Below, piece after piece: positions 1 through 31,069 of a stretch of DNA of 36,860 bases. Position 1 is the first letter of the stretch. The number at the start of each line of letters is the position of its first letter. Position numbers and translations under genes: made by a program. Under the pieces are notes generated by a model. The model was not told the origin of the DNA. It was given only the letters and a program-made list of their open reading frames with translations, and did not search any database. The stretch comes from Verrucomicrobiota bacterium (GTDB lineage: Bacteria > Verrucomicrobiota > Verrucomicrobiia > Limisphaerales > UBA9464). The DNA lies in contig VHCX01000033.1 of assembly GCA_016871615.1 (NCBI GenBank), positions 1 to 36,860 on the forward strand. The letters run 5' to 3'.

Positions 1-258
1 CACGTCGAACTCCCGCGGCACGGTGACGAAGCCGTCGCTCACTCTCACCCGCACCCGGTTCGTGCTCGGTCCCTGCGCCTCCGTCGGCTGCCAGGTCACC
101 AGGCCATTGGTCGACACCGTCAGGCCCTCGGGTCCCGAGACCAGGCCGAAGACCAGCGGCTGCGGCGGGAGGTCGCCATCCACCACCCTGAGCGCGAAGT
201 TCAGCAGCAGGCCCTCGGTCACCCGACGGATGCCCGGGTCGGTCCACACCGGCGCCTG
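1..258 (-). repeat. Direct repeat copy 2 (identical to 556-813)
   Basis: Bases 1-258 are identical to 556-813 at an offset of 555 bp, which is exactly one A+B pair of protein repeats (185 codons). Identity breaks at 259/814 (g versus a), resumes briefly, then stops. The left end is cut by the window, so the identical block may be longer. Confidence 0.95.
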
Positions 259-3200
259 GTTGCGCTCGGCGACGATCACGTCGAACTCCTGCGAGGCGCT
301 GGCGATGCCGTCGCCCACGGTCACCCTCACCCGGTTCGTGCTCGGTCCCTGCGCCTCCGTCGGCGTCCAGGAAAGCACCCCGTTGGTCGTCACCACCATG
401 CCGACCGGCCCCACGGCCAGCCGGTAGGTCAGACGCTGGACCGGGATGTCCGCGTCGGTTGCCTGCAGCGCGAAGGTCAGCAGCGAGCCCTCGGCCACGC
501 GCCGCGTGGCCACCTGGCCCACCCAGGTCGGCTGCCGGTTGGACTCCCGCACCACCACGTCGAACTCCCGCGGCACGGTGACGAAGCCGTCGCTCACTCT
601 CACCCGCACCCGGTTCGTGCTCGGTCCCTGCGCCTCCGTCGGCTGCCAGGTCACCAGGCCATTGGTCGACACCGTCAGGCCCTCGGGTCCCGAGACCAGG
701 CCGAAGACCAGCGGCTGCGGCGGGAGGTCGCCATCCACCACCCTGAGCGCGAAGTTCAGCAGCAGGCCCTCGGTCACCCGACGGATGCCCGGGTCGGTCC
801 ACACCGGCGCCTGATTGCGCTCGAGGACGATGATGTCGAACTGGTTGGTCGATGCCGCCTGTCCATCGCTGGCGAAGACGCGGACGAGGTTGGTGCTCGG
901 ACCCTGCTCCTCGGTGGGCAGCCAGGCGAGCAACCCGTTGGTGCTCACCGTCAGGCCGGTGGGGCCCTCGACGAGTCCGAAGGTCACCATCTGACCGAAC
1001 GGATCCGGGTCGGCGGCCTTGAGGGCGAAACTGATCCGCAACCCCTCGCTGACCCTCCGGGTGCCGACGGGCGTCCAGACCGGCGGCCGGTTCAGGGTGG
1101 CACGCACCCGGAAGCCCACCGGTCCGCCGGCCGGGATCCGGACGCGGACGTACCAGTCGCGTTCCAGCGACGGCAGGTCGCGTCCCGCCTGCACGTTCAC
1201 CTGCTCCGGCTCCAGGCCCGGTCTCGGATCGTTGAACGAGAAGGGCGAAAGCGGCGGCGGCTCGTCGGGGCTGACCTCCATGTCGGCCTCGCCGGTCAGG
1301 GCCTCGAGGTCGAAGGTGATCCCGGGCACATTGCCAGGGTTCCGGAAGATGAATTCCAGGTCCCGAGGCCCGTTGGTCGCCGGCGAATCGAACCAGAGGC
1401 CGTCGTTCAAGGTCTGGAACACGGCGTCCGGGAAGCGGTAGTCGGCCAGGATCGAGTAGGGGGTCGTCCGGGAGCCCACGCTCGCCACGCCGAAGTACCA
1501 CCGGCCCCCGGCCAGCGGCACCGGCTGGGAATCCGGGGTCAGCAGGAGGTCCTCGTCGCCGGATCCCGCCTGGTCGCTCTGGTACTGGAAGGTCTGGAGC
1601 GTGGGCACGGGCAGCCGGTTGCGGGCGCCGAGGACCAGGTCGTTGGTCGCCCCACGGGTCTTGACCCGCAGCGCCACCGCATTGGTCGGGACACTGACGT
1701 AGTAGAAGTCGTCGTCGACGCCCGTGTGGCCCGTGGAGATCCACCGGCCCGGGACCAGTTCCCGGATGCGACCGCGCTGCTCGGTGGCGTTGATCGTGTA
1801 GGCCACGCCGGGGATGCCCGAGACATTGGTGACGGCGAGGTACCAGAGCCCCGGCGAGAGCGGGACGGGCTGGCTGTCCAGATGGATGATGAGGGTCTCG
1901 TTGGTCGCCCCGGCGTTGATCGACTCGTACTCGGCCTGACCCTTGCCGGGCAGTTTCGGGGCGCGGATCGCGTAGAGGTCGACGTCGCCAGTCTGGGCGG
2001 TGACGGTGAAGGTGACCCCGAGCACGTTGCTGGCGGGCACCTCGTAGGAATAGTACTCCTGCAGGAAGGGAAGTGCGTTGGTGACCCGCAGGTCCCTGCG
2101 ATGGACCAGCGGCGTGATGCGCACACCGAAATCGGTGCGGATCGAAAACTCGTTGGACGAGGTCCCGCCGGCGCCCTTCACCGCCAGGTAGTACCGCTGC
2201 CCACGGGGAAGCAACGGCGGCAGGTTGCCGTCGACGACCCGCTCGAAGGAGCGTCCCGCGGGCAGGCGCGAGGTGAAGGTCACCGTGTCGGACTCGATGG
2301 GATCGGGGACGCCCGAGGCGCTGTAGAGCAGGGTCAGCGGCGGACCGGACAGGTTGACCAGCAGGTTGGTGGCCCGCTCGGCCTCCAGCGGCACGTCCAC
2401 GAGGAAATACCGGATGTCCTCGCCCACCACGTTGGTGGTGAAGGCGATGCCATTGGTCAGGCGGAAGGTCGGCGGGTTGGTCGGCATGAAGGTCATGCGC
2501 AACTGCCAGTCGATGAGCTGCCCGGCCTCGCCGCCGCGGGCGTCGGTCACCTGGAGCTGCCAGGTTCCCGAACCCGGCTGGCCCATGAGCGGGCGCAGGG
2601 GCTCCTCGGGCTGGTAGACGAGGCTGGCCCCTTCCTGATCGAGCCAGACGCGGCCAATCTCCAGGCCCGGAGGCTGGTTGGTCTCATAGGTCCTCGGCAG
2701 GACGGACACGAAGCTGACCGGGGTGCGCGAAGACGTCGCCACGAACACGGCGGTGTTGGTCTGCCAGACCCCGGGTCTCGGGTCGTTGAGGTTGAGCTGG
2801 ACGGCGCCGTCGATCCACACCTGGGCGTTCACGATCTCCCGGGCCTCCGCCGACTTGCGGACGGTGAAGGCCAGCCGGTAGGTCTGGCCGATGTTCAGGT
2901 CGTACTGGCGCTCGAGGATGGCGTTGCGCAGGTGCAGCACCTGGCCCTCGGGAGGCCCCTGGACCACCGAAACCAGGTTGGACTTCACGGTCCATCCCTC
3001 GAGCCGGTTCGTCCCGGCCGCATAGTCCCCGGGCGAAAGGGTCTCCCAGTCGTTGGACTGCAACACCTGCGGATAGGCGCGGCCGATGAAGGGGGTCTGC
3101 GCGAACTTGATCGGCGTGTAGGCGGAGTTGGTCGAATCGCCGAAGACCGCGAAGGCCCGGTTGGTCACGACCCCGCCGGCCGGAAACAATCCCGGCGCCG

Positions 3201-6200
3201 TCTTGAGGACGATCTGTCGGCCGTTCTCATCGATGAAGAGCGCGCTCAGCGAACCCGGCCCGTTGCCGAGGGGGGCGGGTTGCCCCACGAGCAGCACGGG
3301 TCCGGCCCGCCGGTTGGTGCGGTCATACCACCCGCCCACGACGAGGCGGTCGTTGCCCGAGTCGGGCTGGATCCAGGCGTCGAGGGTCAGGCCACCCAGT
3401 CGCCCGATCTCGCGCACCCGCGAGTCGGTGGTCGTGGCTCCGGTGCCGGTGCCCGACACCCGCATGCCGAAGTTCATCTGCCCGGGGACTGTGGAACCGA
3501 TGTTGAGCAGGTTGATGGTCTGCCCGGGGATCGCATCGAAGCCCGATCCATCGAGCGGCCACAAGGCCGCCAGACCCGACCTCACGAGGGACGGACTCTT
3601 GGCCTTGCCCACGAGGCCGTCCTCGTAGATGCGCCGGATCTCGCCGTCGCGAAGGGTGCGGCGCCACAGGCCGACATCGTCGAAGTGGATCGGACTGGCC
3701 GGCAGCTGCGCCACCGCCATCGAGCCCAGGTGGAAGGACGACGGCTCATTGCTGGCGGAGAACCGCGCGGCCTGCTGGGCGACGACCTCGCCGTTGAAGT
3801 AGATCTTGGCCAAGCCCTCGCCCCGGTCGATCGACAGGGCGACGTGGTGGTAGTTGCTGGTGACCAACACCCCGCCGAGGCCCCCGGCCGACGTGAGCCC
3901 GCGGTTCTCGAAGACCAGCGCGCCGGCGCCGCCGGGGGTGACCAGGCGCAGCGCCAGGTCGGAGACCCGGGGATGCTCGGCGCGCACGGCGACCTGGACG
4001 TCCGACACCGGCCTCGGGTCGTCCACCTGGACCGTGGCCACGGTGCGTGCGACATCGGCCAGCGTGGCTGAGCCACCCTCGATGGTGCGGGTGAACCTCG
4101 ACGACAGGTTGCGCTCGCCATAGATGGCGACGTCGAAGCACAGCGGCACGCCCGAGGGGTTGCGGAAGAGCACGAAGTAGGTCCCGGTCTGGAGGGCGGG
4201 CACATCCCTCACCGAGATGCTGATCTGACCCGGGCCCAGCAGCGTCGCCACGCGGTCGTTGACGTCGGGATTCTCCGGGTCGGGGAACGCCTCGCGCCGG
4301 ATGAACACCTCCAGCGGGAGGTTCGCCGGCACCAGGTTGGTGACCTCGACGATGAGGCGACTGGCATCCGGGGGCACCAGCCGAAGGCGGAAGTCGTAGC
4401 CCCCGGGTCCGAGGCAAAGGGTCTCGAACACCCGTTCATCGAAGGCCGGCAGGATCTCGGGCTGGACCTGCAGCTCGACCGAGCCGAGGACGCCCGCCGA
4501 CCCCAGCACGTCGTCCTGGAGCAGGTAGTTCCAGGCACCGGAGGAACCCAGGCCCGCGAAGTCCAGCAGCGTGGTGCTCGGGCCGTCGGTCGGCTGGCCG
4601 CCGGCGAACCGAAGGCCCGGGATGTCGTCATACAGGCCCGTGACCGGCCCGGAAACCCGGGTCAGGCCCGTGCCGTAGTCGCGGATGGACCGGCGGTTGT
4701 TGATGGTCACGCCGAAGCCGGCGTGCAGCAGGGTTCCCTGCAGGTCGAAGAAGTCCTCATGAAGGAGAGATTGGATGAAGGTGACGTTGCGGGTGATGCC
4801 GGAGGGTCCGGAGCCGAAGTACCGGACCACGCCCGGGGCGTCCGGGCTGCCGTCGGGAATGCCCCGTCCACCGCTCACGGGCGTCATGAGCACGCTGTAG
4901 CCGTTGGCGCCGAGGACCTGGAAGGGGCGGTCGCTGCTGCGCACCACCAGCTCGAACTCGCCCGCCTGCTGGTCCTCGGCCTTGACGGCGATGTAGTAGA
5001 CCTCGCCGTTCGCGGGGGCGTTGGTGATCTCGATGCGCTCATCCGAGCCCTGGAGGGTCGACCGGTAGGCCGAGGCCAGGACATCGGCCTGCAGGTTGGT
5101 CAGGCCGGGATCCGTGGACATGTAGAGGTCGAGGTCGGGCCCCAGCACCCGAGCCCGCAGGCGGGTGCCGCCCCCCTCGGCGCCCGGGCCGCGCGGGCGC
5201 GCCAGGTTGGCCGCCGAGGCAATCACGAACTCGACATACTGGCCGTTGGTCAGGCCGGTGGCCGCGGCCGCCTCGGGATTGAAGAGGTTGGTGAAGACGA
5301 AGAAGTGCCACTGGGCCGGCTGCCCGGCGGCCCCGCCGATCAGCGGCGACTGGGCACCGACCCTGGAGGCCGGCACCGGGATGCCGTTGGTGGCCACCAC
5401 GGATACGGGCGGCCTCTGGACCGGACCGAAGGCCGTCGCGGTGCCGAGCGACTCCGCCGTGGCCACGATGTCATCCCCGCTGGCCGCATCGGACGACAGC
5501 GCGACGACGAAATCCTGCAGGATGCCCGGACGGTTCAGCAGGTTCTGCGACTCGCGCGCGGCCAGGGCGTTGACGTTCACCCGGCGAGCCACCACGTGGA
5601 CGATGTACTCGCTCGACAGGGGCGGCTCGAGCACCACGCGCTCCACGTTGTTGACCGTGTCGAAGACCGTGTTGACGACCCCCTCCTCGACCACCTCGAC
5701 GGCGTTGGTCCCGATCCGGGGCGCGGTGAAGCCGGTGCGGGCCAGGTCGTTGCCGACGAAGATCTCGCCCGTGACCACGTTGGACACGATGAGGTCCAGG
5801 TCGTTGACCAGCTTGACGCCGGCGGCCGGGTTGCCCGGCGGGTCGGTCCAGACCAGCGTGAAGTGGAAGGCGCCGGTGGAGGCCACCTCGTTGGTGGTCA
5901 GACGCAACCGGACCGACTGGCTGGTGCCGGTGGACAGTTCGCCGGCGAACCCCGCCAACTCGACGACCGCGCCGTCGGCACGGTTCAGCCGCACGCCGCT
6001 GTCGAGCGCACGCGGAAGACTCGGGCGCCCCCAGCCGCCGTAGTTCATCACGGAACGGAAATTGGGCGCGTAGATCTCGGCCGACGGCCGGGCGCTGTTG
6101 ATGACCAGCGCCTTGTAGGCGGCCGCCTCGATGCGCCTGGGCAGGTTCAGCCCGGGCCGGTGCCAGAACTCCTCGATCTGGGCCAGCATGCCGGACACGG

Positions 6201-8046
6201 CCGGCGCGGCCATGCTCGTGCCGGAGAGGAAGCGGTACCACGGAGCCACGGACCGATTCAATTCGTCGAAGACCGCGTACTGGGACGAGTTGGTCTCGTA
6301 CTCGCTCTCCAGCCGCCACTGCGCCGAGCGGGCCGAGAGGATCTGGGAACCCGGGGCGACCACGTCGGGCTTGAACCGCCCGTAGCTGCCCTCGATGCCG
6401 ATGCCCACGTTGCCGCGGCTCGAGAAGTTGGCGATCTCGGTGTCGCTGTCGGTCGACGCCCGCAGGACGAGGTTGGTGGTCAGCTCGGTGTTCGTGGACG
6501 GATCACGGAACTGCCGGCCGCCGGCCCAGATCACGCGCCCCTCGTCGTCGGTGACCACCGCGTTGGTCAGGTTGCGACGGCTCTCGAGCGCGCCCACCGT
6601 GATGACGTTCTTGGCGTTGCCCGGGACGGTGATCGACCCGCGACGGCCGCCGACGCCGTTGTTGCCCCCCTGGCCCGAGTTGCCGGCGGCGAACACGAAG
6701 AGCACCGGCTGCTCGCCGGAGGTCCCGGGCAGGGCGTCGCGGGCGGCCGCGTCATAGCTGGCCGAAATCGAGTTGTACTCGTAGGCCCCCTGGTAGCCCC
6801 AGCTGTTGTTCGAGATGAGCGCGTTGGTCATCGCCGCCTGCTCCTGGAGGAAGGCGTCCGAGATGGTGGGGCCGGTCTGGAGGTCGATCGGCAGGACGAA
6901 GAGGCGGGCGTTGGGGGCCATCCCGCGGAACCGGGCGTTGGTGACCGAGCCCTGCACCGGCCCCGGGACCTGCAGCGAGGCGGCCCCGCTGCCGGCGATG
7001 GTCGCGGCGACATGGGTGCCGTGGCCGTCGGTGTCGGTCAGGAGATTGGTCTGCGAGCCCACCGTGAACACCCGGTTGGTCGTCAGGTCGGGGTGCGTCC
7101 AGTCGATGCCGGAATCGTTGACGTTGACCACCACGTTGCTGCCGGTGAGGCCGCGGTAGGGCGTGGTGTTGGTGATGTCGGTGGCGCTGCCCAGCAGGTA
7201 GGCCGACCGGTCGTTGAGCAGTTCGCGGCGATGGGCCTTCTCGATGAGGTGCACCTCGGGGGCGCGCGCCAGCGGCACGAGGGCGCCCGGGGGCGCGTCG
7301 ACCGTGACCAGCGTGCCGAAAGGGCTGCGCTGGCGTCCGACCTCGCGGACCCCGAGGGCCTCCAGGCGCGCCATGGCGTCGGGGTCGGCCAGCGACAGCA
7401 TCAGCCGCTGTCCGGCCTCCAGCGGACGGCCGTCGACCGCCCGGGTGAGCAGGTCGGGCTCGAGCTTGAAGGCCGGGTGCCAGGGCGAGACCGACGCGAT
7501 GTCGGCGTCGAGGGCCAGGGTCTCGACCGAGGCGTCGGTACCCTGGACGAGGAAGGCGTTGACCGGGAGGTAGGACACCACCGACAGGTGATGCTCCTCG
7601 AGCCGTCGACGCGCGTCGGCGTCGGGCTCGCGGGCGAACTGGACGATGTGGAAGCCCGGCTCCGGACCGGCCACCAACGCCTCGGGCAGCGGCAGCGGCT
7701 CGCCGGAGCGGGTGTCGATGAGGGCGTTGCGCAACACGAGGGCGCGAGGGTCGGTGCGGAGCTGGTCGACGGTGCGGGCCGTGTTGCGGGCACGCCACGG
7801 GAACTCCGGGTCGCGGTGGACCGGCAGGTCGCCGGCCGCCAGCGGGCTCACGCGCACGCGCTTGGCGTCGACATGGGCCGACACGGCCAGCGAGGGAGCG
7901 AGGGCCGGGGCGGACGATGCCGCGGCGACGACCGGCACCCCGGACGCGGAGGCGGGGTCCGACGCCGGCGGCTGCACCCAGCGGTACAGCCCCAGGGAAC
8001 CCACCGCCAGGGCGATGGCGACGATCAGGCTTCGAGACGGGCGCAT
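1..8046 (-). CDS. Giant secreted S8 subtilisin-like serine protease, multidomain (C-terminus beyond window)
   Basis: This frame is open from an ATG at 8046 to the left edge, 2682 codons with no stop, so the C-terminus is missing. An N-terminal hydrophobic segment (about residues 5-22) looks like a signal peptide or anchor. A propeptide-like stretch follows, then a subtilisin domain with a complete triad: Asp311 (NDSGID), His342 (DGHGTH), Ser611 (SGTSMAAP), plus oxyanion Asn456 (AAGNSG). Behind it I see a KP-43-type beta-barrel (LVWTDPPGN, about 665-800), PPC-like modules (about 900-1000 and 1860-2200), two proprotein-convertase P-like domains (about 1110-1200 and 1810-1855), a LamG-like fold (about 1395-1480) and four Ig/cadherin-like repeats from about 2317. 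It probably cleaves extracellular protein. The start lies 22 bp after the Verru_Chthon A stop, suggesting co-transcription with the pseudopilin operon. Thr-Asn pairs are very frequent. The family call is firm; the cassette link is inferred. Confidence 0.93.
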   Translation of the reverse strand, partial: MRPSRSLIVAIALAVGSLGLYRWVQPPASDPASASGVPVVAAASSAPALAPSLAVSAHVDAKRVRVSPLAAGDLPVHRDPEFPWRARNTARTVDQLRTDPRALVLRNALIDTRSGEPLPLPEALVAGPEPGFHIVQFAREPDADARRRLEEHHLSVVSYLPVNAFLVQGTDASVETLALDADIASVSPWHPAFKLEPDLLTRAVDGRPLEAGQRLMLSLADPDAMARLEALGVREVGRQRSPFGTLVTVDAPPGALVPLARAPEVHLIEKAHRRELLNDRSAYLLGSATDITNTTPYRGLTGSNVVVNVNDSGIDWTHPDLTTNRVFTVGSQTNLLTDTDGHGTHVAATIAGSGAASLQVPGPVQGSVTNARFRGMAPNARLFVLPIDLQTGPTISDAFLQEQAAMTNALISNNSWGYQGAYEYNSISASYDAAARDALPGTSGEQPVLFVFAAGNSGQGGNNGVGGRRGSITVPGNAKNVITVGALESRRNLTNAVVTDDEGRVIWAGGRQFRDPSTNTELTTNLVLRASTDSDTEIANFSSRGNVGIGIEGSYGRFKPDVVAPGSQILSARSAQWRLESEYETNSSQYAVFDELNRSVAPWYRFLSGTSMAAPAVSGMLAQIEEFWHRPGLNLPRRIEAAAYKALVINSARPSAEIYAPNFRSVMNYGGWGRPSLPRALDSGVRLNRADGAVVELAGFAGELSTGTSQSVRLRLTTNEVASTGAFHFTLVWTDPPGNPAAGVKLVNDLDLIVSNVVTGEIFVGNDLARTGFTAPRIGTNAVEVVEEGVVNTVFDTVNNVERVVLEPPLSSEYIVHVVARRVNVNALAARESQNLLNRPGILQDFVVALSSDAASGDDIVATAESLGTATAFGPVQRPPVSVVATNGIPVPASRVGAQSPLIGGAAGQPAQWHFFVFTNLFNPEAAAATGLTNGQYVEFVIASAANLARPRGPGAEGGGTRLRARVLGPDLDLYMSTDPGLTNLQADVLASAYRSTLQGSDERIEITNAPANGEVYYIAVKAEDQQAGEFELVVRSSDRPFQVLGANGYSVLMTPVSGGRGIPDGSPDAPGVVRYFGSGPSGITRNVTFIQSLLHEDFFDLQGTLLHAGFGVTINNRRSIRDYGTGLTRVSGPVTGLYDDIPGLRFAGGQPTDGPSTTLLDFAGLGSSGAWNYLLQDDVLGSAGVLGSVELQVQPEILPAFDERVFETLCLGPGGYDFRLRLVPPDASRLIVEVTNLVPANLPLEVFIRREAFPDPENPDVNDRVATLLGPGQISISVRDVPALQTGTYFVLFRNPSGVPLCFDVAIYGERNLSSRFTRTIEGGSATLADVARTVATVQVDDPRPVSDVQVAVRAEHPRVSDLALRLVTPGGAGALVFENRGLTSAGGLGGVLVTSNYHHVALSIDRGEGLAKIYFNGEVVAQQAARFSASNEPSSFHLGSMAVAQLPASPIHFDDVGLWRRTLRDGEIRRIYEDGLVGKAKSPSLVRSGLAALWPLDGSGFDAIPGQTINLLNIGSTVPGQMNFGMRVSGTGTGATTTDSRVREIGRLGGLTLDAWIQPDSGNDRLVVGGWYDRTNRRAGPVLLVGQPAPLGNGPGSLSALFIDENGRQIVLKTAPGLFPAGGVVTNRAFAVFGDSTNSAYTPIKFAQTPFIGRAYPQVLQSNDWETLSPGDYAAGTNRLEGWTVKSNLVSVVQGPPEGQVLHLRNAILERQYDLNIGQTYRLAFTVRKSAEAREIVNAQVWIDGAVQLNLNDPRPGVWQTNTAVFVATSSRTPVSFVSVLPRTYETNQPPGLEIGRVWLDQEGASLVYQPEEPLRPLMGQPGSGTWQLQVTDARGGEAGQLIDWQLRMTFMPTNPPTFRLTNGIAFTTNVVGEDIRYFLVDVPLEAERATNLLVNLSGPPLTLLYSASGVPDPIESDTVTFTSRLPAGRSFERVVDGNLPPLLPRGQRYYLAVKGAGGTSSNEFSIRTDFGVRITPLVHRRDLRVTNALPFLQEYYSYEVPASNVLGVTFTVTAQTGDVDLYAIRAPKLPGKGQAEYESINAGATNETLIIHLDSQPVPLSPGLWYLAVTNVSGIPGVAYTINATEQRGRIRELVPGRWISTGHTGVDDDFYYVSVPTNAVALRVKTRGATNDLVLGARNRLPVPTLQTFQYQSDQAGSGDEDLLLTPDSQPVPLAGGRWYFGVASVGSRTTPYSILADYRFPDAVFQTLNDGLWFDSPATNGPRDLEFIFRNPGNVPGITFDLEALTGEADMEVSPDEPPPLSPFSFNDPRPGLEPEQVNVQAGRDLPSLERDWYVRVRIPAGGPVGFRVRATLNRPPVWTPVGTRRVSEGLRISFALKAADPDPFGQMVTFGLVEGPTGLTVSTNGLLAWLPTEEQGPSTNLVRVFASDGQAASTNQFDIIVLERNQAPVWTDPGIRRVTEGLLLNFALRVVDGDLPPQPLVFGLVSGPEGLTVSTNGLVTWQPTEAQGPSTNRVRVRVSDGFVTVPREFDVVVRESNRQPTWVGQVATRRVAEGSLLTFALQATDADIPVQRLTYRLAVGPVGMVVTTNGVLSWTPTEAQGPSTNRVRVTVGDGIASASQEFDVIVAERNQAPVWTDPGIRRVTEGLLLNFALRVVDGDLPPQPLVFGLVSGPEGLTVSTNGLVTWQPTEAQGPSTNRVRVRVSDGFVTVPREFDV
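556..813 (-). repeat. Direct repeat copy 1 (identical to 1-258)
   Basis: This is the upstream copy, in reading direction, of the 258-bp perfect repeat. It keeps the frame and encodes one Ig-like unit. Lack of synonymous differences points to recent duplication, gene conversion or an assembly effect. The B unit between the copies is clearly diverged. Confidence 0.95.
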
Positions 8047-8068
8047 GACGAAAACGGGTTGGCGGCGT

Positions 8069-11000
8069 TCAGTCCGTGGTCAGCACGCGGTGTTCTTCCA
8101 CCACGGGACGCAGGGTTTGGGTGACCGGGGCGTTGGTCGAGAGGGCCCCCTCGAAACGCAGCACGGTCTTGGTGGCGAATTCGCCGGTGACGACATAGTT
8201 GGTGGCCATGCCGAAGAAGGGGCCCGGCGCGGTGACCACGGCCCCGGCGGCCGGCCGCAGGGTCTGGGCCCAGGCGTACACCACGTAGCGCGGTTCCTCG
8301 GCCTGGAGCAGCGAGAGGATCTGCTGCGGGATGCGCTCGACGACCTCGTCGGGCACGGGCCGGAAGGGCCGGCCCGGGTTGTCGGGATCGGGGAGGATGT
8401 TCTCCAGCAGCGGCGATCCGGCCGAGAGCGACTCGACCGAGCAGATCTCGGCCACCGACTGGAAGCGCGGCAGGGACCGACGCGGCCTGGCCACCCGGAT
8501 GGGATTGCCATCCAGGCCGACACCGACCTCGACCAAGGGATCGCCCGGACCGGCGTTGGTGTGCACGAAGCCCGACACGATGCCGCGCACGGCCTGTCCC
8601 TGGGCGTTGGTGTAGCCCGCGACGATGCGGTGCAGGTAGGAGGACGGATTGCCACCTGCCGGATCAAGCACCGTCGGCACGAGGTTGGTGCCGTCGCTGG
8701 CCAGACGCCGGAGCACCGGAACCCCGGAAAGGATGGCAGACCATGCGGCGAGGTTCGTCTGGTTCACGCCCACCTGCCCCCGCGCCGCGTTCTCGGTGAG
8801 GGCCGTGGAGAAGGTGTCCAAGAGCGACCAGTCGTTGGTCGGGTGGGTGCCATGGCTGCCGGACCACCACCGCCAATGGTGACGGTCTGCAATGTGTCCG
8901 ACGTCGAACGTCTCGATGTTGGCCACCGGGCTCTTGAGATAGATCGTCTGCCAGGGCGTGCCCCGGTGGACCCGACCCAACTGGCCGATCGAGGCGAAGG
9001 CGTTGGTCGGCGTCGGGAACGACCAGGCGGCGCTGTTGGTGACCAGGGGGTCCTTGTAGGCCATGTCGACGGCCAGCAATTCGGAGGACACACCGGTTCC
9101 GAGGACTGGGCTGACCCCCCAAGGCGCATGGGCGCTGATGGCCTTTAGGGGGGCGGCCACCCGGTTGGTCCGATTGACGGTGGTGACGAGGAAATCGCCG
9201 CTCGCCTCAGCGATGCGACTCTCGACGATCGCGGGATCGAGTCGCAATCCCGAGAACACCGACGGGCGACGTTCCAGGTACACGTCGGAATAGAATTTCC
9301 AGTAGCCCTCGGGATGGGTGTAGACCACGCCCCCCGGTTGCAGATCCTCCTTCGTGTAGTGGACGAAGGGGTCGTTGGCCATGCGCCGCTCCGTCAACTG
9401 GACCTCGCCCACGGGATTGAAGCCCACCTGGATGCGGTTGCCGTTGACATTGCCGCCGGAGGCCAGGAGCCGGTCGAGTTCGCGCCGGGCCACCACCTGG
9501 GCGCTGCGTGGCACCGAGTTGATGCCATAGAGGAAGGCCCGCAGGCCGAGGCTGGCGTCGACCCGGGGATCGCCGGTCGTCTGAAGCCCCGGCAGCGTCA
9601 CCGACTCCCAGAACGCGAGCACCCGGACCGGGTTCACCGAGGCGGAGAACTGGTTCTCGAAACCCAGCGGAATCACCCGACCCGCCAGGAAGTTGGTCTG
9701 CCACAATTCGGCCATCTGCAGCGGGCGCACCGCTCCGGCGTCGGCCCCGAGGTTGCCGCCGAGGTTGTCGAAACCCTCGTTGATGCCCGCGTCCCCGCCG
9801 ATGCCGGGCACCGCGCCAAAGGCCGTGTAGCGCAAGTTGTCCAACAGGTTGCTCTCGATCGTGCCGCTCTTGAGGTTGACGAAATCGAGCAGGCGCGGCG
9901 GCACGAAGCTGTCGTCCACGATGGCGAAGACCAGCCGGTTGGTGACCGCCAGCGTGAGCTGCGGCACCAGACGGTCGGGCCGGGTGCCCGGCATCGGGAA
10001 GATCGCCAGCGGGTTGTTGGTCTCGTTGAGCGGGAAGACCCGGCCCAGGACCGGGTTGTACACGAGACCGAAGACGGCGTTGTGGTTGAGGGCCGGGATG
10101 TACTCCTGGGCATCCCACCGGGCGCGGAAGCCGGTGTTGCCATTGCCGACGCGCACCACGTTGCCCACCTGCACCGAGTAGTTGGTGCGGTTGAAGACCA
10201 TCGGGTTCTGCGGGCTCCACGGCAGCGACGGGTTGGCCGGTTGGGGGATGAAGAGCGGTTGGCCCAGCGGCCGGGCCGCGTCGGCAAGGCTGCCGTCGTA
10301 CAGGCAGACCTCGGTCCAGTTGGTGGCGATGAGGCGCAACGGCCGGTTGGCCGGAAAGGCCTGCAGGTAGGCGTTCCAGGCCTCCACGGCGGCGTTGTTG
10401 ATGATTTGCACGGTGTACTGCCCGTACTTCACCACGCCGAGGGCGCTCAGGGTGGTCTCATTGGTGGGCCGCACGGCGCCGCCCGGCGGACGCTCGAGCA
10501 GCAGGCGACGCCCGGTGCGCACCCGGGTCTGCCAGAAGGCCTCGTTGAACTTCGGCAGGCCCAAGGCGCTCGGGCCGGTCTGGTTCTGCTTGGTGCCCAC
10601 GATGAACGGGACGCCGAAGACGTTGGTGCGGGTGGGCACCCTGGGGTTGGCGCTGAGGTTCGCCACGTCCAGCGGATTGTCGAAATCCATCCAGTTGGTC
10701 CAGGCCGTGTTGAGGACCTGCGTGAAGGCGTTGGTGACCTCCTCGAGCCCGGCCAGTCGCACAACCGGCAACCGGCGGCCGGGGTTGCGCGGATCCTCAC
10801 GGTCCTCACGGTAGAAGGTCGGCCGGTAGACATGCGGCGGGAAGGGCTCGGTACCCAGGCCCCCCGGCAGGTTGGTGCGCACCTCGTGGATGTTGGCCGA
10901 GAGCTGGAGCAGCCGGTGGAGCTTGGCCGACCAGGTGTGGTTGGTCAGCGAGACCACCTGGGACTGGCCCCGGGAACCGACCGCGTTGGTCACCCAGTGG

Positions 11001-12706
11001 CTGCCGGCGATGGCGATGCCATGGGCGGCATCCTCGCGGGCGACCGCGTTGGCGGCATCGGGGTAGGTGAACTTGCCCAGCTCGGGCAGGCCGTTGGAGA
11101 ACTCCTTGCGCAGCAGGCGGTCACCGGCCAGCTGCATCCAGGACGGTGCCGTCCAAGGCACCAGCGCCGTCGCTCGGGCCGCCGACCCGGCCAGCCCATT
11201 GGTGGTGACCACGTTGGCGCTGTGCGGCTGGTCCCCGTCGGCATCGAGCACCTGGTAGTTGAGGTTGAGCTTGGCCCGCCGGAAATAGCGGTTGGAGAGG
11301 TCGACCCCGACCTCGATGCGCCCGTCGGAGGCGTCGCTGCCGAGGGAGCCCAACAACCGGTAGAACGTGTAGGCGTTGTAGGTGGAGTTGGATGCCTGCG
11401 CCGGCGAGAACAACTGGGCCGCGAAGCCGCTGCGCCGCGTGTCGAGGTTGGTCCAGATGACCCGGTTGGGCCCGAGCGGCAGCAGGGCGGGATCGGTGAG
11501 CAACTGGAAGGGCGTCAAGTACGGCCGGGCCACGTCGCCACCGGACCAGCGTCGCACGACGTTGTCGCCATCGGTGAGCAGGCGCGGGTTGCGCACCTGC
11601 GCCAGGCTCAGCACGAGCGGGCCGTCGGAAAGGTCGTCGACGCCGTTGGACGGCAGCACCCTGGCGGCGGCGCCAGTGTCGCCGGCGGCCCCGACCTGCA
11701 GGCGGGAGTCGTCGGCCAGCACCTCCTGCGCCGTCATTCGACCGGCCTGCCCGCCGACCCGGCGGTTGGCCCAGAGGTTGAGGGCGTGCTCGAAGGCCAG
11801 GCCCGTGTTGTCGCCATTGGTCGAGTAGGCGTAGGTCTGCCAGAGGTTGGTGTTCAGGTCGCGGAACAGTCCGCCGAGGTTGAGCTCCCAGGAGGCCACG
11901 CCCTGGTTGCGGAGGAACAGGCTGGTGGTGGCGTCGGGATTGCGCGCCTGGTTGTGCGCGTGGTTGAGGTCGACCGTCTGGTCGGCCGGGACCACGAGGT
12001 AGGCGATGCGGTAGAGGAAGCGGTTGTTGCCCGAATGCGGCCGGTCGGGATCGGCCAGCACGCCGACCCACTCGGGATCGCCGACCTGCCAGACCCGGTT
12101 GGTGCCGATGGCCAGACCGAGACCGTTGCGCTGGAGCAGGAACCCGTTGGTGTCGAAGCGGCCGTTGCGGTTGAGGTCGAGGTAGAAGCGGTCCTCGAAG
12201 GAATCGGGACGGGAGTCGAGCCGGCCGGCACGGGCGACGACCGGCACCCGGGGATCGAAGTACAGGTTGGCCAGCATCCGCCGGTACTCGAGCACCTCGG
12301 CCGGGTTGTTCAGGTCGAAGGGCCTGCCGCCGTACAGGTAGGAGACGTTGGTCAGGGCCGAGAACCATCGGTTCGACTGGGCCGCCCCCAGCGGATCGGG
12401 GAGCCCGGCGACCGACAGGCCCGGGATGAAGGACGGCGAGACCAGGTTGGTGGACACCAGGAGCGTGGGCGCCTCGCGCAGCCCGTAGGCCGCGATCTGC
12501 GCCAGGATGCGGGCCCGGGCCCGGTTCAGGGCGGCGTCGGCGGCGATGCGCACGTCGGCCTGCTCGCCGGCGGCCGCGACGGCCGCGCGCTCGCGGCGGG
12601 CCACGGCCAGGAAGGCGACCGCCGTGATCGTCACCACCGAGAGCATGATCAGGGTGATGACCAGCGCCACACCGCGCCGGCTGGATGGGATGGAGAGTCG
12701 TTTCAT
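8069..12706 (-). CDS. Verru_Chthon cassette protein A (giant PilX-like protein)
   Basis: The protein has 1545 residues and starts at an ATG that overlaps the stop of the preceding gene by 4 bp (ATGA), suggesting translational coupling. The N-terminus has a short basic leader (SSRRG) then a hydrophobic helix (VALVITLIMLSVVTITAVAF, about 13-32) and a long polar helix, as in PilX/GspK-type minor pilins. It lacks the Glu at +5 typical of major pilins. The rest is a long, mostly beta, exported region with no enzyme motif I recognise. Position and neighbours match Verru_Chthon cassette protein A, a family tied to four-gene clusters in Verrucomicrobiota. I counted 30 Thr-Asn but only 4 Asn-Thr pairs. 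It probably sits at or caps a pseudopilus, or is exported by it; that role is inferred. A longer upstream frame exists but would run through gene C. Confidence 0.87.
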   Translation of the reverse strand: MKRLSIPSSRRGVALVITLIMLSVVTITAVAFLAVARRERAAVAAAGEQADVRIAADAALNRARARILAQIAAYGLREAPTLLVSTNLVSPSFIPGLSVAGLPDPLGAAQSNRWFSALTNVSYLYGGRPFDLNNPAEVLEYRRMLANLYFDPRVPVVARAGRLDSRPDSFEDRFYLDLNRNGRFDTNGFLLQRNGLGLAIGTNRVWQVGDPEWVGVLADPDRPHSGNNRFLYRIAYLVVPADQTVDLNHAHNQARNPDATTSLFLRNQGVASWELNLGGLFRDLNTNLWQTYAYSTNGDNTGLAFEHALNLWANRRVGGQAGRMTAQEVLADDSRLQVGAAGDTGAAARVLPSNGVDDLSDGPLVLSLAQVRNPRLLTDGDNVVRRWSGGDVARPYLTPFQLLTDPALLPLGPNRVIWTNLDTRRSGFAAQLFSPAQASNSTYNAYTFYRLLGSLGSDASDGRIEVGVDLSNRYFRRAKLNLNYQVLDADGDQPHSANVVTTNGLAGSAARATALVPWTAPSWMQLAGDRLLRKEFSNGLPELGKFTYPDAANAVAREDAAHGIAIAGSHWVTNAVGSRGQSQVVSLTNHTWSAKLHRLLQLSANIHEVRTNLPGGLGTEPFPPHVYRPTFYREDREDPRNPGRRLPVVRLAGLEEVTNAFTQVLNTAWTNWMDFDNPLDVANLSANPRVPTRTNVFGVPFIVGTKQNQTGPSALGLPKFNEAFWQTRVRTGRRLLLERPPGGAVRPTNETTLSALGVVKYGQYTVQIINNAAVEAWNAYLQAFPANRPLRLIATNWTEVCLYDGSLADAARPLGQPLFIPQPANPSLPWSPQNPMVFNRTNYSVQVGNVVRVGNGNTGFRARWDAQEYIPALNHNAVFGLVYNPVLGRVFPLNETNNPLAIFPMPGTRPDRLVPQLTLAVTNRLVFAIVDDSFVPPRLLDFVNLKSGTIESNLLDNLRYTAFGAVPGIGGDAGINEGFDNLGGNLGADAGAVRPLQMAELWQTNFLAGRVIPLGFENQFSASVNPVRVLAFWESVTLPGLQTTGDPRVDASLGLRAFLYGINSVPRSAQVVARRELDRLLASGGNVNGNRIQVGFNPVGEVQLTERRMANDPFVHYTKEDLQPGGVVYTHPEGYWKFYSDVYLERRPSVFSGLRLDPAIVESRIAEASGDFLVTTVNRTNRVAAPLKAISAHAPWGVSPVLGTGVSSELLAVDMAYKDPLVTNSAAWSFPTPTNAFASIGQLGRVHRGTPWQTIYLKSPVANIETFDVGHIADRHHWRWWSGSHGTHPTNDWSLLDTFSTALTENAARGQVGVNQTNLAAWSAILSGVPVLRRLASDGTNLVPTVLDPAGGNPSSYLHRIVAGYTNAQGQAVRGIVSGFVHTNAGPGDPLVEVGVGLDGNPIRVARPRRSLPRFQSVAEICSVESLSAGSPLLENILPDPDNPGRPFRPVPDEVVERIPQQILSLLQAEEPRYVVYAWAQTLRPAAGAVVTAPGPFFGMATNYVVTGEFATKTVLRFEGALSTNAPVTQTLRPVVEEHRVLTTD

Positions 12707-13926
12707 TGGGGCGCGGTGCGGAGGACGACCCGCTGGCGGAGCGTCTGGAGGGCGCCGGCGTTGTTCGCCAGCCAGCGGTTGCGGGCCTGCAGCGTGTCGG
12801 GAAGGGCGCGGAACTGGTCGAGTTGCTTGCCGTCCAGCAGCGTGATCTCGATCTCGATGGATGCCGGCAGGTTGGGCCCGCGGAAGAGGGCGCTGACCTG
12901 CCCGGTGTCGGGGTTGACCGTCAGCACCTCGATGGGCAGGGGCCGGGAGACGCCGCCGAGCCGGTTGGTGGCCAGCGCCTGCCAGTCGGCCGGGGCGACC
13001 GGGACATGGCGGGGGGAATTGGTGTTCACGCCGACCCTCGGGAAGAGGACGTCGAAGCGCACCGGATGGTTTCCGTCGAAGGGGCGTCCGTCGGCATCGA
13101 AGGCGGTGATGCGGCACTGGATGACCCCTTCCAGCACGCGGGGGGCGTCGAGGCGGGCCGCGAGGGTCGCCGCCGTGGGATAGGCGGCGGTGGAGAGCCG
13201 CAGGGAGACGAGGTTGGTGCGCAGCGAGGGCGTGCCGGTGAGCCGGTAGGGCGACGCCGTGACCGGCGCGGCCAGTCCGTCCCGCAGCCCGGCGGTGCCC
13301 AGCACCTGCACGACGTTGGAGCTCGGCAGCGCCTCGTCGTAGAGGTAGAGCGAGCCGAGCCCCGGGATCGTCCCCGGGGCCACGGGCCCGGCGTCGGGCG
13401 TGCCCAGGAAGAGGCCGGCCACATGCCACCGGCCGCCGCCGACCGGGTAGGTGAAGAACAGCTCGTCGAAGCGCAGCGGCTGGGTGCGGTTGGCCGCCGG
13501 CCCGTCGCCGGGGAAGAGCAGGTCATAGCCGTTGGCATCCGACGGGCGGACCACCAGGTGCAGGGCGTCGTCGACCCCCGGGGAGGCCGCCCGCTCCACG
13601 CTGCGGACGATCAGGTCGAGGGCCGAGCGCCCCCCCTCGGACAGGTCGGCCTGGTTGAGGCTCTGCCGGAAGGCCCTCTGGGTCTGGTCGAACATCGCAT
13701 AGAGCGCGAGGATGATGACCGTCAGCAGGCCGACGGCGATCATCAGCTCGAGCAGCGAGAAGGCCTGCGTCCGGCGGCGGAGACTCTGGAGTCCGGGGGT
13801 TTGGAGTCCGGGGGTTTGGCGTGGGACGACCCGGACCGGACATCCCGGGCATCCCGTGGTCCCGGGGACGCCGCGGGCCACGCCGGCAACGCCTGCGAAA
13901 TCCGCCTCGACAGGGAAACGCTTCAT
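12703..13926 (-). CDS. Verru_Chthon cassette protein C (PulJ/GspJ-like pseudopilin)
   Basis: The protein has 407 residues from an ATG 4 bp after gene B. A type IV prepilin motif lies unusually deep: the leader is about 55 residues, then AFSLLELMIAVGLLTVIILA with Glu at +5, followed by a polar helix (FDQTQRAF, LSEGGRSALDLIVRSVERAA) typical of PulJ/GspJ minor pseudopilins. The family expects short leaders, so a later start is possible (a GTG in the GVARG region is one), but no clear ribosome site supports it. The leader contains a doubled TPGLQ peptide from a 15-bp tandem repeat. The residue before the cleavage Phe is Ala, not Gly. The end overlaps gene A by 4 bp. It probably builds the tip or shaft of a secretion pseudopilus at the inner membrane. 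Confidence 0.87.
   Translation of the reverse strand: MKRFPVEADFAGVAGVARGVPGTTGCPGCPVRVVPRQTPGLQTPGLQSLRRRTQAFSLLELMIAVGLLTVIILALYAMFDQTQRAFRQSLNQADLSEGGRSALDLIVRSVERAASPGVDDALHLVVRPSDANGYDLLFPGDGPAANRTQPLRFDELFFTYPVGGGRWHVAGLFLGTPDAGPVAPGTIPGLGSLYLYDEALPSSNVVQVLGTAGLRDGLAAPVTASPYRLTGTPSLRTNLVSLRLSTAAYPTAATLAARLDAPRVLEGVIQCRITAFDADGRPFDGNHPVRFDVLFPRVGVNTNSPRHVPVAPADWQALATNRLGGVSRPLPIEVLTVNPDTGQVSALFRGPNLPASIEIEITLLDGKQLDQFRALPDTLQARNRWLANNAGALQTLRQRVVLRTAPQ
13787..13816. repeat. 15-bp tandem duplication in the leader of cassette gene C
   Basis: The unit TGGAGTCCGGGGGTT occurs twice head to tail (13787-13801 and 13802-13816). It keeps the frame and encodes the doubled TPGLQ peptide just upstream of the prepilin motif. 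Confidence 0.9.
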
Positions 13927-13930
13927 AGGA

Positions 13931-14839
13931 TCACAGGGAACCCGGCGGGAACCGGTAGAACTGCACGACGCCGGGCCCGGGGGTCTCCGGGGCGGGGTTG
14001 AACGGGTAGACGATGTTGCCGAAGAAGGACGGATCCTGCGGCACGCTGCCACGCAGCGGGGCCGGTTGGCCGAGCACGTCGGTGCGGAACTCGCGGCGGT
14101 TCAGCCCCAGGCGGTACTGGTCGGGTGCGGGACCGGTGCGCTGCAGGGGCCACTCGAGGATCATCCGGACCTCGGAGACCGCCGCACCCGGACTGTTGCC
14201 CTGGCGCGTCACCGTCTCGAGGGTCACCCGGTAGCGGAAGGCCAGGTCCATCCTGGGATCGTTGGGGTTGCCACGGCGTTCGCTCCAGCGGATGACCGGG
14301 TGCTCGGCCATCGAGCCGCTCATCGAGCGCATCTCCAGCCGTACGACGTTGGTGACCGTGACCGGATTGCCACGGCTGACGGCCGAGGGCTCCAGCGTGT
14401 ACTTCGGGCGACTGACCAGGCCCACGAGCTGGAAGGCGTCGCCGATCGGATCGGAACCGGCAAGCGTGCCGGTCACCATGGGACCGTGGAAGTGGTTGGT
14501 GCGCGTGGGCGACCGGTCGCGGTACTGGCGGACGAGCGTCACGCGGTCGGCGTAGTGGAGCAGGTCCTGCAGGCCGGTCTGCCCGCCGCGCACGACGTTG
14601 AGCAGCAACTCGGCATCCTGGGTGAGCAGCGACTCCTCGCGGTCCTGCCTCTGGACATTCAGGCCGGCCGGCAGCACGCCGATGATCGCCACCATGGCGA
14701 TGGCCACCACGGCGATGCACAGGGCGATCTCGATGAGCGTGAAGCCCGAACCCGTGCCGGTCCGGCGGGTCCGCGGGAGGCGCACGAGCGACGGGAGCGG
14801 CGCCGGGCTCGGGGAGGCGGGATGTCCGGGGAGTCTCAT
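13931..14839 (-). CDS. Verru_Chthon cassette protein B (PilV/GspI-like pseudopilin)
   Basis: The protein has 302 residues. I chose the ATG at 14839, which shares one base with the stop of gene D (TGATG); a TTG one codon earlier is less likely. A leader of about 33 residues rich in Pro and Arg ends in GSG. The prepilin helix FTLIEIALCIAVVAIAMVAI follows, with Gly at -1 and Glu at +5, then GVLPAGLNVQRQDREES, which resembles cassette B and PilV/GspI proteins. The remainder is a beta-rich periplasmic head without a recognisable catalytic motif. It lies second in the D-B-C-A run and is probably coupled to D. It is the only one of the five prepilins here with the canonical Gly before the cleavage Phe. 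Confidence 0.87.
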   Translation of the reverse strand: MRLPGHPASPSPAPLPSLVRLPRTRRTGTGSGFTLIEIALCIAVVAIAMVAIIGVLPAGLNVQRQDREESLLTQDAELLLNVVRGGQTGLQDLLHYADRVTLVRQYRDRSPTRTNHFHGPMVTGTLAGSDPIGDAFQLVGLVSRPKYTLEPSAVSRGNPVTVTNVVRLEMRSMSGSMAEHPVIRWSERRGNPNDPRMDLAFRYRVTLETVTRQGNSPGAAVSEVRMILEWPLQRTGPAPDQYRLGLNRREFRTDVLGQPAPLRGSVPQDPSFFGNIVYPFNPAPETPGPGVVQFYRFPPGSL

Positions 14840-15750
14840 CAACGGAGGGCGGGTTTGAGGATCCGGGACCGGCCGGTGAGGCTGGAGACGATCACCCGGT
14901 TGTTGGTGGCGTTGTCGCGGGGCGTCTCGATGGCATCGGGCGTGACCGACGGGTCGATGCGGCCCGCGGCGTCGCGGGAGATGAACACGCTGCCCTGCCC
15001 CACGCCGAGGGCCAACTCGGAGAGCGGGGGCAGCCGGAGGTCGGCACGACCGTTGAGTGCCCAGGCCCGGTTCATCTCGTCGAGGGCGAGGCGGCCGTCG
15101 GGCCCGAAGGCCACGAAATGCATGGGGATCGCCGGCAGCGTGTCGCCCGGGTACTCGGCGAGGGGGAACCGGAACGGGCGCTGCGGCAGCTGGTGAAGGG
15201 CCAGGTCATGCCGGTCGGTCGGGCCCAGCGGCGCCGGCAGGAAGAGCCGTGGCGAGAGGATGACGCCCTCGGGCAGGGTCTGCCAACCGGGTCCGAGGTA
15301 GCGGGTGTGGCTGCGCCCGGGCTGGGCCCCGGTCTCCCGCTCCACCAGGAGCGCATAGGAGTGGTACACGCCCAGGGCGATGTTGGTGAAGCTGCGAAGC
15401 GCCTGCTCGCGGAACCCCGCCGGCGCCACCTGGCGCCCGACGATCATGGCCTCCACCTGGGAGTCCAGATCCGGCCGGGCCACCCAGACATTGGTGGGTG
15501 CGAAGACGACATACACGGTGGTGCGCAGGCGCAGGGCCTCCTGACGGGCACGGTTCAGGTCGTCGCCGAGCTGGCGGTGCCCGCTGGCCAGGGTCTTGCC
15601 CTGCACCATGCCCCGGATCGCCGGCACGGTGACACCGGCCAGAAGCCCGATCACCGCCACCACAACGAGCAGCTCGAGCAGGGTGAAGGCCCCGGGCCGC
15701 CGGCTGGTAGCGGCAGGGTCCGTGCACCCGGTGGGTCCTTGGGGCTTCAT
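14839..15750 (-). CDS. Verru_Chthon cassette protein D (GspH/FimT-like pseudopilin)
   Basis: The protein has 303 residues. I chose the ATG at 15750 because it gives a leader of about 22 residues ending RRPGA before FTLLELLVVVAVIGLLAGV; a more distant ATG at 15834 would overlap the upstream gene. The helix is followed by PAIRGMVQGKTLASGHRQLGDDLNRARQEALRLRT, a GspH/FimT-like pattern shared by cassette D proteins. A soluble beta domain (VYVVFAPTNVWVA) follows. Its stop shares one base with the start of B. It probably is a minor pseudopilin subunit in the inner membrane/periplasm. The residue before Phe is Ala, with Gly one residue earlier. The family assignment rests on motif and context. Confidence 0.87.
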   Translation of the reverse strand: MKPQGPTGCTDPAATSRRPGAFTLLELLVVVAVIGLLAGVTVPAIRGMVQGKTLASGHRQLGDDLNRARQEALRLRTTVYVVFAPTNVWVARPDLDSQVEAMIVGRQVAPAGFREQALRSFTNIALGVYHSYALLVERETGAQPGRSHTRYLGPGWQTLPEGVILSPRLFLPAPLGPTDRHDLALHQLPQRPFRFPLAEYPGDTLPAIPMHFVAFGPDGRLALDEMNRAWALNGRADLRLPPLSELALGVGQGSVFISRDAAGRIDPSVTPDAIETPRDNATNNRVIVSSLTGRSRILKPALR

Positions 15751-15830
15751 GCGGGGGTGGCGTCGGGTGGGTGGGCGGCTGGGACGGACGGTGGCGCGGG
15801 AGGTTCCGCCGGGGTGAGGTGCCGCCGGGA

Positions 15831-16610
15831 TCACTTCCAGCTGTAGATGTTGTCGCGGTTGTTCGGGTGGTCCTGGTCGGCCGTGAGGTCGGCCTTGCCG
15901 TCGGGCCCGAGGGACATCACCAGGGCGTTGCCCGGGATGAACCGGGGCTGGGCCGGGCGGCCGGGGGCCACCAGCGGGAACGGGCTGAGGACACGGCTGT
16001 CGTAGTCCAGATCGAGCACGACGATGTAGGGATGGCCCCAGGGGTCACGATACACGCCGAGATCGTCCACGCCGTTGGGCTGGTTGCGGCCCACGGTCTT
16101 GGTCGCCAGGTACACCGTGCGCTTGGGGTTCTGGTTGTTGTTGAGGTTGACCGCGTCGGTCACGCCACCCTGGACGTCGGCCACGCTCTGCGCGGTGAGG
16201 ATGGCGATGACCTCGGAGTTGTTGGCCTCGCGGCCGCTGTTGCCCTGGTCGCGGACGAGTTGGTAGCCGGTCTTGGTGGCCACCGTCGGCGTGGGCAGCA
16301 CCCCCTTGGCGTCGGGCGTGTTGGCGTTGCCGAAGATCCAGTCGGGTGCGCCCGCCGGGCGGCCCGTCAGGCCGTGGGCATCCCGGGTCCGCTTGGTGGC
16401 CGGCAGGCGGGAATAGTCGGCCTGGTAGGAATTGATCGCGCCGACGATGCCCGTGACCTCGACCTTGGCCTTGGCCGACTTGGCCTTGGTGGTCGCCGAG
16501 GCGATGGCCGGCAGCAGCATCGCCGCCAGGATGCCGATGATGGCGATGACGACGAGCAGTTCGATGAGCGTGAAGGCGCCGTGGCGCCGGGCGTTCGTTC
16601 GGGTCTTCAT
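15831..16610 (-). CDS. GspG-like type II secretion major pseudopilin (1)
   Basis: The protein has 259 residues from an ATG at 16610; the open frame continues upstream but the prepilin leader fixes the start. It begins with a basic leader (MKTRTNARRHGA), then FTLIELLVVIAIIGILAAML with Glu at +5 and a polar helix (TKAKSAKAKVEVTGIVGAINSYQADYSRLPATK). Near the end YRDPWGHPYIVVLDLDYD matches the DPWGxPY signature of GspG pseudopilins, and the tail NRDNIYSWK matches the family end. At 259 residues it is longer than classical GspG (about 140), with an insert of about 100 residues in the globular head. It lies 101 bp after a paralogue and 80 bp before cassette D. It probably forms the pseudopilus shaft. 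The residue before Phe is Ala. Confidence 0.88.
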   Translation of the reverse strand: MKTRTNARRHGAFTLIELLVVIAIIGILAAMLLPAIASATTKAKSAKAKVEVTGIVGAINSYQADYSRLPATKRTRDAHGLTGRPAGAPDWIFGNANTPDAKGVLPTPTVATKTGYQLVRDQGNSGREANNSEVIAILTAQSVADVQGGVTDAVNLNNNQNPKRTVYLATKTVGRNQPNGVDDLGVYRDPWGHPYIVVLDLDYDSRVLSPFPLVAPGRPAQPRFIPGNALVMSLGPDGKADLTADQDHPNNRDNIYSWK

Positions 16611-16711
16611 GGGTTCTCTGACGCGCGGGTGGGATCGGAACGGAGCGGTTTTCGGGGGGATGGGCGTTGGGCGTTGGACGGACGGCGGGGTCTCCGGGGG
16701 GGAAGTGTGGC

Positions 16712-19682: not shown

Positions 19683-19803
19683 ATCGGTCTCCTCGGGGAT
19701 GGGGTCGGAAAAAGGGGTCGAAAGGGGTTTGGGGTGCCCGGATGCGCGGGCGGATCTGGAGGACGAGGTCCTTGAGGTTCCTGGGGACGGTTTTCGGGAT
19801 GGA

Positions 19804-21504: not shown

Positions 21505-21522
21505 GGGGCGGTGCGTTGGGGG

Positions 21523-22623: not shown

Positions 22624-22768
22624 GGGTTGTATCTGGAAAGGGGCTGGGGCTCTGGTTCGGGCGCTCTGGATCGGGATCAGCCCGCGCGGACGGACGCCGC
22701 CACGGGCGTCAACGCCGCCTCCTCGAACAAAGCAACTCCGGGGCCATTCATGGTCGCATTCGGTGGGA

Positions 22769-30925: not shown

Positions 30926-31069
30926 CCGGGATCCTGGACTCCATTCCAACCCGTCCCGCGACAGACCGGAAGCGCAAACTCGATGCCTACCGTGGCGCGA
31001 TGGACGGAAAACGAAACGCCTCCGCCTCGCGAATTGTCTTCGGGATCGGCGCGTGATTGCCTAAGGCCC

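Follow-up and report, generated by a model that had tools for sequence, protein, structure and literature searches.

Two giant exported proteins at the start of the window, the whole 36,860-nt stretch of DNA analyzed here, contain the dipeptide Thr-Asn (TN) many times and its reverse, Asn-Thr (NT), only a few times. What does this one-way bias reflect? A preliminary description of the sequence attributed it to selection rather than base composition, suggested beta-turn design, a glycosylation acceptor or a sorting feature, and regarded it as restricted to these proteins. The genes concerned are listed in Table 1; throughout, paired figures (x/y) are observed over expected counts.

Table 1. Features of the window considered in this study.
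Feature	Coordinates	Strand	Remarks
S8 protease giant	1..8046	-	Peptidase_S8, P_proprotein, PPC, He_PIG/Big_9; cut by the window start
Cassette A giant, 1545 aa	8072..12706	-	PilX-like prepilin N-terminus; ATG at 12706
Cassette C-like pseudopilin frame	12706..14052	-	start not fixed; TN 3, NT 1, expected 1.0
Cassette B-like pseudopilin frame	13934..14842	-	TN 2, NT 0, expected 0.7
Cassette D-like pseudopilin frame	14842..15834	-	TN 3, NT 0, expected 0.5
GspG-like pseudopilin frame	15834..16829	-	TN 1, NT 1, expected 1.3; no enrichment
GspH/GspG-like pseudopilin frame	16715..17497	-	TN 4, NT 0, expected 0.5
Pilus motor genes (T2SSF, three T2SSE)	18324..24493	-	internal cytoplasmic/membrane control

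The protease (2682 amino acids) holds 42 TN and 5 NT, and cassette A 30 TN and 4 NT, which are exactly the counts of the preliminary description (given there as about 42 for the protease). Random expectation does not equal these numbers: 5000 composition-preserving shuffles yield a mean of 9.0 TN (maximum 20) for the protease and 6.7 (maximum 17) for cassette A, and when residues are shuffled only within 20 positions, the TN ratio of the two giants is 4.04. Among the residues preceding Asn, Thr alone stands out (4.66-fold in the protease, 4.51-fold in cassette A), while Ser stays at 1.17-fold and 0.99-fold. TN recurs every 10–30 residues, and 26 of the 42 pairs in the protease and 16 of the 30 in cassette A are followed by a hydrophobic residue two positions after Asn (T-N-x-hydrophobic). 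In the protease, the same TN sites return from one He_PIG repeat to the next. At the nucleotide level, the abundance of gttggt that had been noticed on the plus strand is real, as GTTGGT occurs 76 times in the window versus 12.15 expected (maximum in 100 shuffles 21), with 73 copies on the plus strand, of which 1–12706 holds 57. The structure model of cassette A is poor (pLDDT 54.1) and gave no PDB match at E 0.001.

Taken together, the five pseudopilin frames between 12706 and 17497 comprise 13 TN and 2 NT with 4.0 expected. T2SSF and the three T2SSE proteins contain 0, 1, 0 and 2 TN (NT 1, 0, 1 and 0), the DUF1501 protein contains one TN and the DUF1553 protein none, so these groups are as TN-poor as had been described. 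The supposed restriction to the two giants does not hold, since the pseudopilins and exported proteins across the genome and the order share the bias. Gene order and the prepilin-type N-termini of the motif-bearing proteins resemble the Verru_Chthon cassette (TIGR02596/02598/02599/02600), but every match here falls below the curated cut-offs; for TIGR02600, cassette A reaches 21.6 bits (cut-off 332.3) over the first 56 positions only, and hmmscan at 1e-3 returned no match.

To place these proteins in their genome, 837 kb of the 3.83 Mb were surveyed (the window and 40 further stretches) with simple home-made scripts for gene calling and signal peptides, which are crude, so that class labels of single proteins may err. 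Exported proteins (n = 118) contain TN at 236/99.4, NT at 81/99.4 and Ser-Asn (S-N) at 100/103.3, whereas cytoplasmic proteins (n = 244) show TN at 134/126.9 (1.06-fold) and NT at 121/126.9; the comparison of TN with NT by location that had been proposed thus separates the two classes, and the cytoplasmic ratio does not equal the exported one. With local shuffling (within 20 residues), cytoplasmic TN is at 1.02. TN is the top dipeptide of the genome's own exported set (z 14.0 versus 6.6 for the next). In the 111 exported proteins outside the window, TN amounts to 157/80.7 (1.95; bootstrap 1.50–2.44), and this ratio drops to 1.27 when the ten most TN-rich proteins are removed. Pilin-like proteins (n = 10, those of the window included) reach 2.93-fold. 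No excess is found in eight exported DUF1553 proteins (8/9.1), nor in 20 Tat-like exported proteins selected by a stricter pattern (15/15.4, or 0.98), a few of which are doubtful as Tat substrates; this pattern supersedes a looser one (40 proteins, cassette A among them; 59/32.3). The TN-rich proteins carry Pfam domains as different as RCC1, Ig, fn3, HlyD, AsmA, DUF4340, penicillin-binding protein and TPR. Given the drop to 1.27 and the TN-poor Tat-like and DUF1553 proteins, only some of the exported proteins carry the bias.

The bias extends to relatives in the order, probably Limisphaerales or close to it within the Verrucomicrobiota. Full-length cassette A homologues (n = 18, from 18 genomes, locus GC 50.5–68.4%) contain 19–32 TN each versus 5.4–11.2 expected. 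In 20 stretches of relatives, the 20 cassette A frames add up to 529/154.6 and 91 further exported proteins, including S8 giants and pseudopilins, to 869/264.9, compared to 47/35.5 for 46 proteins called cytoplasmic. Local shuffling within 20 residues leaves a TN ratio of 3.01 in the relatives. TN is also the strongest dipeptide of the relatives' pooled exported set (z 48.9, next 8.5), although kinship inflates z, and S-N (1.03), N-T, T-D and T-G are not raised alongside it. In the cassette A alignment (without the partial L061 and L068), 138 columns contain TN, 61 of them in a single one of the 19 sequences and two in all. The pair is retained or lost as a unit: its log odds of 3.15 rank second among 186 dipeptides, whose median is 0.87, as counted without the near copies L073, L067 and L064.

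When 229 exported proteins from the order are pooled, T-N-x-[VILMFWY] occurs 839 times versus 165.4 expected (5.07-fold), and T-N-x-other is at 2.25-fold. When all 20 residues are compared in front of N-x-hydrophobic, the highest value next to that of Thr is 1.25-fold (W), and in the place of Asn after T no other residue exceeds 1.03-fold (H). Pro directly after Asn is rare in exported proteins (0.25-fold), as are Lys and Arg at N+2 (0.05- and 0.24-fold). Judged from these residue frequencies, the motif is specific for T and N at the protein level. In folded exported proteins S-N shows the hydrophobic N+2 preference too, so part of the motif context may be structural.

YidC combines one large periplasmic domain with membrane and cytoplasmic parts, and it thereby offers an internal control. 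Among 30 YidC proteins from the order, the periplasmic domain contains TN at 154/50.1 and NT at 47/50.1, and the non-periplasmic remainder TN at 12/12.1. The periplasmic part of the 30 YidC proteins from families scored as TN-poor has TN at 27/29.4, and the bias is therefore lineage-specific within one protein. The YidC of the source genome itself has 3 TN, one of them in the membrane part, and 0 NT. Past the first membrane helix lies a linker with pLDDT below 50 (residues 32–91 of the AlphaFold model). The 30 linkers of the order (1414 aa) contain 65 TN versus 15.8 and 12 NT versus 15.3 under local shuffling, Thr preceding 65 of their 103 Asn residues. A hydrophobic residue follows at N+2 in 32 of these 65 pairs versus 11.4 expected (P = 5e-9), with Val alone at 18 versus 4.5, compared to 21 of 117 for Thr without Asn (20.4 expected) and 9 of 38 for Asn without Thr (6.6 expected). 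Linkers of families f51, f52 and f54 carry 12 TN versus 2.6 expected, nine with the hydrophobic residue, and those of TN-poor families 10 versus 5.9, one with it. In the P1 domain, a state could be assigned to 82 TN, and 59 of these are in coil versus 588 of 1024 T/N residues; five further TN lie in insertions, outside these 82. The motif is thus confined to exported or periplasmic segments, and it peaks in disordered linkers and in coil at the surface. Its sites turn over, as 36 of 57 YidC columns with TN have it in a single sequence. Retention of the pair as a unit is ordinary in YidC (log odds 1.59, rank 38 of 189), the folded domain has a mild excess of S-N (38/25.4), and Ser replaces the Thr of TN more often than other Thr residues (21.9% versus 8.1%), which weakens a strict need for Thr.

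Other families of the phylum were surveyed in 20-kb samples of one to six genomes each, with the labels TN-rich and TN-poor set post hoc; genome G150 was left out because no exported gene was called, and in the YidC work two of 30 genomes were dropped for want of a YidC match. TN is the top-enriched dipeptide in seven families (f34, f36, f42, f45, f47, f50 and f54), in which T-N-x-hydrophobic is enriched 2.2–4.6-fold. For TN, ratios of about 1 or lower were obtained in f25, f28, f33, f35, f37, f39, f41 and f58. Family f52 is mixed (giants 1.09, YidC 3.0). Even within the order, a giant of G045 (f11) shows no excess (TN 30/28; T-N-x-hydrophobic 4/9.2), and neither do the He_PIG giants of f13 (2/2.2) and f50 (1/1.6). 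The trait is therefore patchy, by family as well as by protein.

The reading that fits these data best, to which we assign a probability of roughly 60%, is that T-N-x-[VILMFWY] is the putative acceptor motif of a lineage-specific general protein modification at the periplasmic face of the inner membrane. An enzyme acting on Sec-exported chains would recognize T-N-x-hydrophobic, and the predicted modification is most likely O-glycosylation of Thr, by analogy with Bacteroidota, where the sugar is attached at D-S/T-hydrophobic. The giant protease and the cassette proteins would then be heavily modified surface or pilus-associated proteins. According to the report on Bacteroidota (PMC12871550), their general O-glycosylation uses the motif D-S/T-[AILVMT], a short motif that is lineage-enriched in soluble regions of many unrelated non-cytoplasmic proteins, and its core transferase is undiscovered. 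The putative TN system works like it but differs from it: Asn follows Thr, the motif is T-N-x-hydrophobic, Ser has no part in it in the pooled exported set (S-N 1.03) although it substitutes for Thr at some YidC sites, and the phylum is another one. D-[ST]-[AILVMT] shows no enrichment, either in the relatives (111 exported proteins, 178/256.1, or 0.70) or in the source genome (118 exported proteins, 104/141.0, or 0.74). N-glycosylation by STT3/PglB shares the periplasmic location and a motif containing Asn, but was rejected: the source genome has no STT3 match (three of 36 genomes match, one over the cut-off), N-x-S/T is not enriched in the exported proteins of relatives (697/750.4, or 0.93) or of the source genome (201/189.1, or 1.06), and neither is D/E-x-N-x-S/T (35/62.1 and 18/18.1). 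A search of the literature by title and abstract start, with subscription journals and preprints outside its scope, found no paper on the TN motif.

With low confidence, the writer of this modification may be a TMEM260-like (PF11028, GT117) GT-C protein. The human TMEM260 enzyme O-mannosylates Ig-like IPT domains, as described in PMC11292533. The PF11028 protein of the source genome resembles it in having a GT-C domain with C-terminal TPRs and conserved acidic residues; in the first-loop motif of 25 bacterial relatives, Glu81 is conserved in 24, Asp82 in 25 and Glu85 in 24. The bacterial proteins, by contrast, are not known to have such an activity and also occur in TN-poor families. All 21 genomes examined from the order encode PF11028, as do all 15 from f34, f36, f42, f45, f47, f51, f52, f54 and f57, a total of 36 of 36 in which not all genomes were individually scored for TN and f57 is ambiguous. 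Among the 27 genomes of TN-poor families it is present in nine and absent from 18, so it is a candidate only, one that may be required for the trait without being enough for it. By E-value, PF11028 proteins looked closer in TN-rich than in TN-poor families. On the PF11028 tree, however, the TN label changes four times (mean after shuffling 6.3, with a value as low in 9 of 500 shuffles), and on the YidC tree, built from a different set of rows, five times (as low in 124 of 500). Since the PF11028 tree largely follows that of YidC and leaves TN-rich and TN-poor families unseparated, no co-evolution is claimed. PMT (PF02366) is missing from the source genome but occurs in 31 of the 36 genomes, and 35 of the 36 encode Wzy_C ligases (PF04932); neither family separates TN-rich from TN-poor genomes, and both were rejected as discriminating writers.

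A nucleotide or codon effect (an ACC-AAC pair, repeat expansion or translation pausing) is refuted as the main cause and seems extremely improbable. ACC is indeed over-used before Asn in the cassette A homologues (387 of 534 Thr codons versus 300 expected) and ACG under-used (102 versus 160), but all four Thr codons serve in TN, the choice of Thr and Asn codons tracks genome GC, and the TN count per protein stays steady from about 50 to 69% GC. The hexamer ACCAAC is enriched in the coding frame (264 versus 55.8) and not in the other five frames summed (29 versus 25.7). Selection, which had been proposed, therefore acts at the protein level, which agrees with the lack of an excess in cytoplasmic genes. 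It is also very unlikely that a few repetitive families such as He_PIG or RCC1 happened to contain TN and passed it on by shared ancestry. Several of the genome's top TN proteins do consist of RCC1, Ig or fn3 repeats, and the protease copies its sites with its He_PIG repeats. Yet YidC, the pseudopilins and cassette A are biased without being related to these repeats, YidC sites turn over, and TN ranks first in seven families.

A structural preference is the more serious competitor, though still unlikely: without any modification, beta-rich exported proteins would favor T-N in turns, in linkers and where strands begin. A hydrophobic N+2 residue, also seen after S-N, is expected at a strand start, TN in YidC P1 favors coil, and the bias is missing from Tat-like and DUF1553 proteins. 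Against this, the identical YidC fold in the TN-poor families has no excess, S-N, N-T, T-D and T-G do not rise with TN, and the pair with its N+2 preference is kept in foldless linkers, where turns are hard to invoke as a cause. For the same reasons, beta-turn design loses ground among the earlier suggestions. A sorting feature is improbable as well, because inner-membrane YidC has the bias and many exported proteins lack it. Another periplasmic role, with the pair read by a protease, a chaperone or a quality-control factor, or with Asn acting chemically without a transferase, would suit a short motif that recurs so regularly in the giants and is limited to non-cytoplasmic proteins. Nevertheless, the demand for both T and N without an enriched substitute resembles an enzyme acceptor more than a chaperone site, and we know of no homologous system; we consider this role quite improbable. 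The modification reading has its own difficulties, namely the exported DUF1553 and Tat-like proteins without excess, the low ratio without the ten richest proteins, the giants of G045, f13 and f50, the ordinary pair retention, frequent Ser and raised S-N in YidC, and PF11028 in TN-poor families. Of the three earlier suggestions, a modification acceptor, itself putative, nonetheless fits best, given a motif specific for T and N that is strongest in disordered linkers.

The full proposal, that Limisphaerales-like and several other families possess a periplasmic T-N-x-hydrophobic modification system, a second bacterial sequon of the O-glycosylation type, with a TMEM260-like writer, is put forward only tentatively and is doubtful as a whole. 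If true, the PF11028 family would be the first place to seek the core transferase of Bacteroidota, reported as undiscovered (PMC12871550), and the possible writer would be related to a human O-mannosyltransferase. The motif gives a concrete and cheap prediction for mass spectrometry, since YidC, the pilins and the giant surface proteins all offer candidate sites for the acceptor. An abundant phylum of soil and freshwater would then have an undescribed, lineage-wide protein-modification code that can be read from genomes alone.

The giant protein of cassette A, roughly 1500 amino acids in length, starts with a PilX-like prepilin N-terminus, and its first ~56 positions identify it in 46 of 59 relatives. 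Past these N-terminal ~56 positions, the cassette A protein has no match in Pfam or NCBIfam. Another genome (G008) has a stretch that matches TIGR02600 (Verru_Chthon cassette protein A) in its C-terminal part at 1e-32; it contains three in-frame stops (two TGA and one TAG) and is perhaps a broken gene. Nine contigs bearing cassette A-type genes (L137, L138, L141, L142, L143, L160, L167, L168 and L178) carry the label 'Akkermansia muciniphila' in their titles. These are names of lake MAGs, and the label looks wrong; L194 is labelled Candidatus Omnitrophota.

Two exported RCC1-repeat giants of the window's genome (G000) also contain Thr-Asn pairs, and its exported DUF1553 (PSD1) proteins are poor in them. 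Certain of the 53 PSD1 matches in G000 are fragments of a single gene. Exported proteins of genome G131 (family f33; L236) are strongly short of Thr-Asn (1 versus 12 expected).

Coordinates of the features discussed
Feature	Location	Strand	Thr-Asn pairs
Cassette A	8072-12706	minus	30
RCC1-repeat giant, G000	L024:11889-16520		18
RCC1-repeat giant, G000	L263:6095-10504		17
Example of a PSD1 (DUF1553) match, G000	27203-30949		
TIGR02600-matching stretch (L029), G008	G008:C2:2561-3079		

Codon choice was counted over 534 Thr-Asn codon pairs from cassette A and 18 homologues. Ahead of Asn codons, ACC is favoured (387 versus 300 expected) and ACG disfavoured (102 versus 160 expected), a skew that may reflect general codon context.
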